DNA of 52,445 bases from Candidatus Omnitrophota bacterium (GTDB taxonomy: Bacteria; Omnitrophota; Gorgyraeia; Gygaellales; Profunditerraquicolaceae): positions 1-52,445 of the forward strand of contig JAHIOW010000042.1 in the NCBI GenBank assembly GCA_018895075.1, read 5' to 3'. Positions 1-1,527 of the stretch are shown piece after piece. Position numbers and translations under genes: made by a program. The stretch's first letter is position 1. Each line of letters starts with the position of its first letter. Under the pieces are notes generated by a model that searched no databases, was not told the DNA's origin, and saw nothing but the letters and a program-made list of their open reading frames with translations.

Positions 1-129
1 GAATGCAAACACGCTGTCGCTTCACTTATCATCATTGACTCCAGCTTCTTACTATCAAAGAACAAAGAACTCGCTGTTGCCTTATACAACATCAAATCAG
101 AACGATTCAAAGAAAGGCTGAAAAACTAA
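1..129 (+). CDS. 3' end of an unrecognised gene (partial, 42 codons visible)
   Basis: Reading frame 1 is open from the window edge to a TAA at 127-129. The visible C-terminal tail is helix-like and lysine/arginine-rich (it ends KERLKN) after a hydrophobic stretch (ASLIIID). I do not recognise the family. It is the only plus-strand frame in this corner and is followed by minus-strand tRNA genes, so it would converge on them. Because only the tail is visible, this may be a chance open frame; the codon choice looks coding but cannot be judged over 42 codons. Confidence 0.35.
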   Translation, partial: ECKHAVASLIIIDSSFLLSKNKELAVALYNIKSERFKERLKN

Positions 130-157
130 CAAACTCCTGTTCTTCATGAAATAAAAA

Positions 158-230
158 TGGGCCGTGCAGGAATCGGACCTGCAACCCCTTGCTTAAGAGG
201 CAAGTGCTCTACCGATTGAGCTAACGGCCC
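158..230 (-). tRNA. tRNA-Lys (anticodon CTT)
   Basis: The minus strand folds into a standard 73-nt cloverleaf. The acceptor stem is GGGCCGT/ACGGCCC (7 bp) with discriminator A. The anticodon stem is CTTGC/GCAAG with loop CTCTTAA, which gives anticodon CTT (reads AAG, lysine). The T arm is GCAGG/CCTGC with loop TCCGATT. The gene encodes no 3' CCA. It is the last gene of the minus-strand tRNA cluster. Confidence 0.95.
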
Positions 231-251: not shown

Positions 252-371
252 CAAATTGCTGATGGTATTCTAACAAATAATCCAAAATTACGCAATAAGC
301 TATTCGCTATTTGCCAAAATGCGCCTGGCTGGAGTCGAACCAGCAACGCCTAGCTCCGAAGGCTAGCGCTC

Positions 372-411
372 CCTGCCTGCCCCAGCCTGCCGGCTGGCAG
401 GGGCAGGCAGG
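372..411. repeat. 40-bp GC-rich palindrome (CCTGCC/GGCAGG type) inside the tRNA-Arg-like unit
   Basis: The arms CCTGCCTGCCCC (372-383) and GGGGCAGGCAGG (400-411) are perfect inverted repeats, with further self-complementarity (AGCC/GGCT) in the centre. A shorter CCTGCCGGCAGG palindrome of the same type sits in the element upstream of ptsH (52305-52316). This suggests a dispersed family of small palindromes. Confidence 0.8.
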
Positions 412-416
412 TATCC

Positions 417-446
417 TCCGCCGAAGGCGGATCCGCCTACGGCGGA
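417..446. repeat. Two tandem 15-bp palindromes (TCCGCC-NNN-GGCGGA)
   Basis: TCCGCC-GAA-GGCGGA (417-431) is followed directly by TCCGCC-TAC-GGCGGA (432-446). The same core, ATCCGCC-NNN-GGCGGAT, forms the central hairpin of the structured repeats at 10379-10395 and 52237-52253. All copies keep the arms and vary only the three loop bases. Confidence 0.8.
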
Positions 447-506
447 AATTGAGCTATAATTATCAAATGCGCCTAGGTGGATTCGAACCACCAAAAGCCA
501 GTTCCG

Positions 507-689
507 CCCCTCGCCTTAATTCAGGCGGATCCCGAGTAAATTGTTTATCGCGCTCGGCGAGAGTCGAACTCGCAACGCCTAGCTCCGAAGGCTAGCGCTC
601 TATCCATTGAGCTACGAGCGCAAAATAATTCGGGTTTAATTCTATCCACCAAGGCTCGGGATCGAGTCTAAAACTTTACGAGGGACTCG
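507..689 (-). other. 183-nt insertion (intron or mobile element) interrupting tRNA-Arg, carrying a complete tRNA-Arg
   Basis: On the minus strand the two ends of the insertion can pair. TCCCTCG (685-679) is complementary to CGAGGGG (513-507), seven pairs including one T-G. Further inside, CTCGGGATC (655-663 on the plus strand) and GATCCCGAG (528-536) form inverted arms around the intact tRNA at 549-621, and CGAGTC (663-668) pairs with GACTCG (684-689). Leaving out the tRNA, only 110 nt remain. That is too short for a group I intron, and no group I core was recognised. Confidence 0.55.
549..621 (-). tRNA. tRNA-Arg (anticodon TCG), intact, nested in the insertion of another tRNA-Arg
   Basis: This is a complete cloverleaf: acceptor GCGCTCG/CGAGCGC, D arm GCTC-AATGGATA-GAGC, anticodon stem CTAGC/GCTAG with loop CTTCGGA (anticodon TCG, reading CGA), T arm GCGAG/CTCGC with loop TTCGACT, discriminator G. 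Its anticodon arm matches that of the damaged unit at 320-456, so those two are close paralogues. The split tRNA around it is a different lineage (D and T arms differ). Presumably this is the copy that serves CGA codons. Confidence 0.95.
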
Positions 690-726
690 AAGACTGGTGC
701 CTTATCCGTTAGGCAATAGGCGCAAT

Positions 727-1446
727 CTAAATTATCTGGCACTTATCGCCTAAAATCTCTTTGATCTTATTCAGTTTCTTATTATCCACGCAACTAATAT
801 TCTCCTCGGAGGTAACGCGCACAGGTGAATTCAGGTGTATCTTATCGGGATTCACCCTATCAATAACCGCCTTTAATCTCTTGATATGCCTTAAATCATC
901 GTTTAGCCCTCTTGCTAACATCACTTCCAGCCATATTTTACCGCGGAATTCTTTCCTGAGATTCACCAAGCCCTCAATAATATCTTCTATCTTTATCTGT
1001 GAGTGCGGACGGTCAACTTTCTCAAAACAATCTCCTGTTACAGCATCCAGAGAAGGAACGATTAAATCCGCATTGCCTATTTCCCGGCGTATTGCAGAAT
1101 CCGCTAATAAAGATGAATTTGTAATCACTGCTACAGGCAAGGAAGTCAGTCTTTTAATTTCTGTGATAAGTTGGCCTATCTTAATATTTAATGTGGGTTC
1201 ACCCGAACCGGACAGAGTGATATAGTTTATTTTTTTTGCCTCCGGGCTATTATTTTGCAACCAAAGCCTCAATTCATTCAAAATCTCTTCTATCGCGATA
1301 TACTCTTTTCTCTCTTTGGTCTTCTCTCTAGTCTTACCCAACTGGCAATAGACACAGTCAAAACTGCATGTCTTATGAGGGACCAGTGTAATCCCCAAGG
1401 ATAAACCCAATCTGCGTGAATTTAGGGGACCGTATATATATTTCAT
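727..1446 (-). CDS. Radical SAM protein, COG0731-like
   Basis: The N-terminus MKYIYGPLNSRRLG, followed by a CxxxCxxC motif (CSFDCVYC), identifies a radical SAM enzyme that binds one [4Fe-4S] cluster and cleaves S-adenosylmethionine. SGSGEPTL and NSSLL match the SAM-binding parts of the barrel. Family members usually open with MKYIYGP, so I chose the ATG at 1446. A GTG eight codons upstream (1470) is in frame, but a G-rich stretch lies between the two starts. The substrate is unknown; relatives are often called Fe-S oxidoreductases. It follows lpxI by 81 nt (57 nt from the alternative GTG start) and ends 3 nt before the split tRNA-Arg. Confidence 0.85.
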   Translation of the reverse strand: MKYIYGPLNSRRLGLSLGITLVPHKTCSFDCVYCQLGKTREKTKERKEYIAIEEILNELRLWLQNNSPEAKKINYITLSGSGEPTLNIKIGQLITEIKRLTSLPVAVITNSSLLADSAIRREIGNADLIVPSLDAVTGDCFEKVDRPHSQIKIEDIIEGLVNLRKEFRGKIWLEVMLARGLNDDLRHIKRLKAVIDRVNPDKIHLNSPVRVTSEENISCVDNKKLNKIKEILGDKCQII

Positions 1447-1527
1447 CGCCTGATAAAAACCCCCCAACACTTCCGCTTTTAGCCTTACGCTATATTGAAA
1501 GTAGTGGGGGTCAGTGATATCCTCACC

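Follow-up and report, generated by a model that had tools for sequence, protein, structure and literature searches.

How does a bacterial tRNA gene come to hold a second, complete tRNA gene inside its anticodon loop? The question is raised by a locus near one end of contig C37 of the 1.05-Mb, 73-contig genome of an uncultured Candidatus Omnitrophota bacterium; this contig, the whole 52,445-nt stretch that was analysed, is referred to here as the window.

A tRNA gene nested in a tRNA gene

A preliminary description had reported a tRNA-Arg(TCG) gene split by a 183-nt insert that contains a complete inner tRNA, and ARAGORN, Rfam and RNAfold bear out each of these points together with their coordinates. 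The outer tRNA-Arg(UCG) lies on the minus strand as two halves, 723-690 and 506-468, which join into a 73-nt tRNA with anticodon TCG and no stem mismatches; the joined sequence is accepted by ARAGORN and folds as a cloverleaf in RNAfold (-31.0 kcal/mol). The inner tRNA-Arg(UCG) is complete (ARAGORN, 548-622; Rfam tRNA model, 67.1 bits at 549-621), and its presence leaves 110 nt of the insert for everything else. In the window, the cargo is a type I tRNA and the outer gene a type O tRNA. The junction falls at 34/35 of the outer tRNA, or within 34-36 given an insertion point that is uncertain by 2 bp, with CG common to both junctions. Read in place, the outer gene is reported neither by plain ARAGORN, nor by ARAGORN with introns allowed, nor by cmscan. 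The locus is composed of the following features.

727-1470, minus strand: radical-SAM protein gene, the conserved upstream neighbour of the tRNA-Arg slot (PF04055, E=4.2e-14; present in 76 of 85 loci).
690-723, minus strand: type-O outer tRNA-Arg(UCG), 5' half of the interrupted gene (ARAGORN on the joined tRNA; intact homologues at the same locus in relatives).
507-689, minus strand: insert of 183 nt between loop positions 34 and 35 (CTT/CGGA, with the CG ambiguity); G079 (twice), G043 and G085 have it at this position, as does G017 for the 5' side alone.
655-689, minus strand: L-end of the cassette, CGAGTCCCTCG-N10-GACTCGATCCCGAG, with hairpin CGAGTC/GACTCG; conserved in the two copies of G079, diverged in G043 and G017.
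622-654, minus strand: 5' linker, A+T-rich and not conserved (identity to G079 is 55%, whereas the cargo reaches 100% and the L-end 86%).
549-621, minus strand: inner complete tRNA-Arg(UCG), the cargo (73/73 identity with the innermost tRNA of G079).
537-548, minus strand: 3' linker, not conserved (46% identity to G079).
507-536, minus strand: R-end of the cassette, CTCGGGATCCGCCTGAATTAAGGCGAGGGG, whose hairpin TCCGCC/GGCGGA takes in the outer gene's CGGA; conserved in both G079 copies, in G043 and in G085.
468-506, minus strand: 3' half of the outer tRNA-Arg, beginning at the anticodon-loop CGGA (ARAGORN on the joined tRNA).
321-467, minus strand: third tRNA-Arg(UCG), its D-loop broken by two palindromes (372-411 and 417-446) that also occur elsewhere in the genome, its 5' acceptor strand unpaired.
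158-230, minus strand: tRNA-Lys(CUU), the usual downstream neighbour (ARAGORN).

The ends of the insert have structure of their own. The 7-bp pairing between 685-679 and 513-507 noted in the preliminary description is present, one T.G wobble included. The L-end and the reversed R-end share the pattern CCCTCG-N14/15-GATCCCGAG, which 12 of 5000 shuffles match as well for the window copy and which is weak in the inner copy of G079; each end can also fold into its own hairpin, that of the R-end borrowing CGGA from the target. Inverted repeats of this kind are also expected of an RNA helix. In the inner copy of G079 and in G043, the L/R helices contain a C.A mismatch without compensation, which slightly favours DNA ends over an RNA helix, and conserved ends and cargo joined by free linkers would be the pattern expected of a functional cassette.

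The surroundings differ between two contigs of the same genome. Contig C6 matches window positions 589-466 exactly over 124 nt and then diverges into tRNA-Lys, archease (PF01951), RtcB (PF01139) and serS, in the order seen in G079 and other relatives. Both contigs thus carry the part of the nest that runs from the anticodon of the inner tRNA to the 3' end of the outer one, and they branch just past the outer gene, so the window has an alternative continuation below about position 466. The first 460 bases of the window, perhaps a strain variant, contain a further tRNA-Lys, the end of one more gene, and the third tRNA-Arg, which is broken. The palindromes in the D-loop of that third tRNA-Arg are of the CCTGCCTGCC...GGCAGGCAGG and GGCGGATCCGCC types, which are dispersed in the genome. 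After the tRNA-Lys, window positions 1-157 and the C6 locus (L028) both have ATTTTTATTTCATGAAGAAC, the start of archease in C6; the window then enters the end of a plus-strand gene (ECKHAVASLIIIDSSFLLSKNKELAVALYNIKSERFKERLKN) that has no Pfam match, and one of the two variants looks as if something had inserted at the start of archease. The order tRNA-Arg(TCG), tRNA-Lys, archease, rtcB, serS behind the radical-SAM gene is found in several Omnitrophota, at L028, L067/L169 and further loci; this linkage between tRNA genes and an RNA ligase may merit separate study.

The same slot in related genomes

The preliminary description had proposed looking in related genomes for an intact outer tRNA or for the same split, and both occur in Omnitrophota relatives. 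An uninterrupted type-O tRNA-Arg occupies the same locus in other genera (G024, G029, G031, G044, G048 and others), and in some other relatives the slot behind the radical-SAM gene holds a type-I tRNA-Arg. None of the 73 contigs of the window's own genome contains an uninterrupted copy of the outer gene; the filled and empty sites that were compared belong to different genera. In G079 (Omnitrophota STC_8) the slot holds a three-level nest. From its 5' side come the 5' half of the outermost gene and an L-end, then the 5' half of the middle gene and a second L-end; the intact tRNA and an R-end follow, and the 3' side consists of the middle gene's 3' half, a degraded fragment of a tRNA with a T-loop hairpin, another R-end and the 3' half of the outermost gene. 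G043 (Modern_marine.mb.30) has a diverged nest whose outer 5' half is split again, and two genomes retain remnants, an R-end and outer 3' half with a T-loop insertion in G085 and an L-end and 5' half with a D-loop insertion in G017. Wherever the junction is visible, the break is at the anticodon-loop CTT/CGGA, reading CTT/GGAG in G017; the direct repeat at both junctions is CG only in the window and CGGAG in G043. This recurrence and homology of the arrangement across genera had gone unnoticed in the preliminary description. The uninterrupted outer tRNA in relatives and the recurring insert confirm that the nested arrangement is not a product of chance.

Identity between the window and G079 is unevenly distributed, with 100% in the cargo (73/73), 86% in the L-end, 82% in the R-end, 46-55% in the linkers and 72% in the outer tRNAs. 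The middle outer tRNA of G079 is, like the window copy, flawless when joined. Its paired changes (GTGCCTG/CAGGCAC and TCAGT/ACTGA) also occur in intact relatives (L117, L115), and compensatory evolution after the split was dropped as an explanation on that ground. The preliminary description had named relatives whose outer halves decay without compensatory change as evidence against its own reading; such relatives are seen, with outer halves lost or further inserted into and no compensation after the split. A degraded tRNA-Arg with a T-loop hairpin insertion (CCCTTCG...CGAAGGG) is common to two genera (L049, 1780-1840; L068, about 1320-1365).

Searches for further copies returned this locus and its homologues. 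Elsewhere in the genome there are no copies of the L- or R-end, and a search of the phylum sample and 84,980 species genomes found the ends only at these Omnitrophota loci, apart from a match in Frankia without a tRNA; G079 lies outside the class-level sample that was searched for cassette copies. Other matches to half-end patterns lie away from tRNA genes. Neither the L nor the R pattern has a match in IMG/VR, and the 11 kb downstream of the G017 L-end contain no R-end. A larger integrative element lying between L and R in G017 or G085 was also considered, and the search gave the known ends only. The insert itself has no coding capacity, and no integrase adjoins it.

Fragments of tRNA-Arg are frequent around the slot. 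Among 84 syntenic loci with an intact tRNA-Arg(TCG), surveyed within 350 nt and on both strands, 17 have tRNA-Arg fragments beside the intact gene. Of the 27 fragments, 26 lie on the side that matches their part of the gene, 5' pieces upstream and 3' pieces downstream; a marginal 16-nt match in G106 is the exception, and no fragment in the 84 loci lies on the opposite strand. At several loci the fragment and the intact tRNA are of different kinds, as in G049, where an O-type 5' half stands beside an I-type gene. No fragments were found beside the small control sets of tRNA-Ser (7), tRNA-Gln (1) and tRNA-Phe (1) genes.

The tree of the radical-SAM gene adds a further dimension. The four nested carriers that could be placed on it are scattered, as are the carriers of the GCGCTCG-type tRNA; each distribution needs 4 label changes, of which the starred branches alone force one. 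For the O and I types, 74 loci require 16 changes, a figure that is rough given 27 weak branches among the 72 inner ones and a radical-SAM gene that may itself be exchanged, and a single O clade is rejected (p-AU 5e-46). Since tRNA types disagree with the tree of the flanking gene, the slot seems to turn over its tRNA repeatedly. Taken together, the loci record a precise and recurrent insertion, conserved ends, a cargo that is conserved and foreign, free linkers, one-sided fragments, and tRNA types that depart from the flanking-gene tree.

Other irregularities were seen nearby. The neighbouring tRNA-Lys has 5' pieces of its own upstream in L036, L038, L041, L131 and L141; 10 of 45 tRNA-Lys genes have a fragment nearby, always on their own strand, and some of the matches are weak. 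Most of the 5' pieces break off in the D-loop, and a hairpin separates them from the intact copy. In L131 and L127, an upstream 5' tRNA-Arg scrap is followed by its own inverted copy (GCGCCCATAGCTCAA ... TTGAGCTATG), which makes a long hairpin just before the intact tRNA. In L156 and L081, about 130-150 nt separate the intact tRNA-Arg from a duplicated 3' tRNA end downstream; the two spacers are alike (ACTGCGGGGTGAC... and AGCCCC...GGGGAGCGA) and resemble a very small integrated element or RNA gene.

A probable replacement from inside, and its alternatives

We favour, with a probability of roughly 0.6, the reading that a tRNA-Arg cassette inserts in the anticodon loop of the resident gene and takes over, while the outer gene decays. 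The cassette would consist of the L-end, an A+T-rich linker, a complete tRNA-Arg(UCG), a second linker and the R-end, about 180 bp in all with no protein gene, and would have been inserted precisely between positions 34 and 35 of a resident tRNA-Arg(UCG) gene. Insertion would have destroyed that gene and supplied the same decoding through the intact tRNA of the cassette. The halves of the outer gene would then erode into 5' scrap upstream and 3' scrap downstream of the new gene, and repeated rounds would produce Russian-doll nests and changes of tRNA type at one conserved slot. We infer that the cassette moves as DNA and that the inner tRNA is the working one. The outer gene of the window is most likely a fresh pseudogene, and the remark in the preliminary description that a dead outer gene would imply a very recent event holds good.

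Several observations weigh against a cassette. Its ends occur at this slot only and form no multi-copy family of the kind expected of a transposon, for which a target restricted to the slot could account; a functional gene, too, should show an outer tRNA as flawless as that of the window; and palindromes that entered duplicated tRNAs could be the source of the D-loop cases. The mover might be an HUH/Y1 (REP-type) transposase acting in trans on the hairpin ends, or a site-specific recombinase acting via a circle junction. Y1 transposase genes are present in the window's genome (G000, two), G079, G043 and G017, that is, in 4 of 5 genomes with the element or its remnants, with no match in G085 (77% complete), and they are present in most controls too. 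Tyrosine recombinases occur in all 12 genomes tested. A serine integrase is disfavoured as the mover, as G000 has only a broken serine recombinase gene and G043 has none. No enzyme is tied to the element by the distribution of Y1, tyrosine or serine recombinases.

The flawless outer tRNAs of the window and of the G079 middle copy also agree with a real intron, in which the outer tRNA-Arg would be spliced by some nuclease together with RtcB and archease, or by a new self-splicing RNA, one transcript giving two tRNAs. Both cloverleafs persist when the entire transcript is folded with RNAfold (-102.4 kcal/mol), and the insert extends from the anticodon stem as a single long arm; the R+L junction hairpin has z = -4.1; and archease and RtcB are encoded two genes downstream on C6 and in relatives, but the archease-rtcB pair follows the slot also where nothing is nested. 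The preliminary description had suggested that the paired ends of the insert present the junctions for splicing, an idea that finds no support here: the splicing endonuclease domain PF01974 is matched in the control archaea but in 0 of 12 genomes, and the helix that adjoins the anticodon stem lacks bulge-helix-bulge geometry. The archaeal and eukaryotic-type motif has 3-nt bulges around a 4-bp helix, usually at position 37/38, whereas here a 6/3 internal loop separates the anticodon stem from the 7-bp helix. The same description had judged a group I intron improbable, and indeed Rfam gives no group I or II intron up to E=10. Moreover, outer genes are broken in most relatives, with broken or halved ones in G043, G085 and G017, and the L/R helices are not kept by paired changes, as the C.A mismatches in the G079 inner copy and in G043 attest. 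On these grounds we consider an intron unlikely, and splicing and use of the outer tRNA in the window copy appears less likely than movement of a cassette.

Anticodon loops of tRNAs are standard targets of integrases, and the locus could be the relic of one or two larger integrative elements that brought in a whole tRNA or halves of one and whose bodies have since disappeared. The fragments lie nearly always on the side expected of displaced halves, and tyrosine recombinases are ubiquitous in the genomes tested; yet the complete copies are similar in compact size and layout, so that independent body deletions would have to converge, and the junctions share CG only, short of the identity that tyrosine integrases need. 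With the state of the serine recombinase genes, the blank result in IMG/VR and the missing R-end downstream of G017 also counting against it, such a relic is distinctly unlikely. Still less probable is an origin without any mobile cassette, by local tandem duplication or recombination of tRNA-Arg at a hot spot, with REP-like palindromes dropping into the loops of redundant copies. Spare tRNA-Arg and tRNA-Lys pieces do have palindromes in their D-loops, both in the window and in many relatives, G003 has tandem tRNA-Arg copies, and the tRNA-Lys fragments fit as well, though some are weak matches. However, a type I tRNA inside a type O gene is not a self-duplication, the homologous L/R ends found at one position across genera enclose outer genes that differ, and a whole gene inside a loop is not a product of duplication. 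The branch of the assembly graph at the point where C6 diverges might suggest an artefact, a reading that is scarcely credible given that homologous nests or pieces come from other isolates and projects (STC_8, Modern_marine.mb.30) and that C6 also carries the inner-to-outer 3' junction.

Relation to known systems and meaning

The preliminary description knew of no tRNA-in-tRNA arrangement as a bacterial gene form, and the literature that we searched, mostly outside subscription journals, likewise describes no bacterial tRNA gene with another tRNA gene nested in it. Integrative elements that target tRNA genes, REPINs, group I introns and archaeal tRNA introns each share a part of the arrangement, and for each at least one tested defining feature is lacking here. 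Integrative elements that target tRNA genes (prophages, ICEs and genomic islands) also use a fixed tRNA-loop position, leave a working tRNA and produce tRNA pieces as scars, but they encode an integrase, share a longer core of identity and carry a tRNA part from which the target is rebuilt; the present insert, of 181-183 bp, has a complete separate tRNA as its sole cargo, the overlap is 2 bp and the target is sacrificed. REPINs and BIMEs, non-autonomous sequences with two inverted hairpin-forming ends that are moved by RAYT (HUH/Y1) transposases (PMC8049555), resemble the cassette in those ends, and Y1 genes and dispersed palindromes are present in this genome. Unlike them, the cassette is not multi-copy, has ends that differ from the palindromes of the genome, carries a tRNA gene and has one target.

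Group I introns of bacterial tRNA genes likewise insert precisely in the anticodon loop after U, and the U before the 5' junction and the G at the insert end (CTT^...GGGG^CGGA) fit such an intron, a match that is weak alone; the insert differs in having neither a group I core (P3-P8) nor an Rfam match in the 110 nt besides the inner tRNA. Among archaeal tRNA introns, an intron of tRNA-Trp nests a box C/D RNA, and introns have transposed among tRNA genes in Thermoproteales (PMC4090602). The likeness lies in an RNA gene nested in a tRNA intron and in movement between tRNA genes as DNA, whereas here there is no bulge-helix-bulge or splicing endonuclease, the RNA that is nested is itself a tRNA, with the identity of its host, and the outer genes decay. 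Eukaryotic tRNA-derived SINEs are also mobile sequences built around a tRNA gene, but the cassette lacks retroelement machinery and a poly-A tail, its tRNA is an intact cloverleaf, and its target is the cognate tRNA gene.

Returning to replacement by a cassette, we tentatively raise the possibility of a self-contained mobile tRNA gene, a hairpin-ended cassette with a complete tRNA as its sole cargo that homes, in other bacteria, to the anticodon loop of the corresponding tRNA and replaces the resident gene. If this is true, a selfish element would be rendered harmless by bringing a spare of the gene that it breaks. In practical terms, the locus is a warning for annotation, the outer gene having been missed by both ordinary tRNA finders. 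Whereas tRNA genes are usually viewed as passive landing sites, here a tRNA gene is apparently both passenger and target. The nesting would preserve, in physical form, the succession of replacements at one slot, and would offer a mechanism by which tRNA genes may be exchanged between bacteria with decoding kept at every step.
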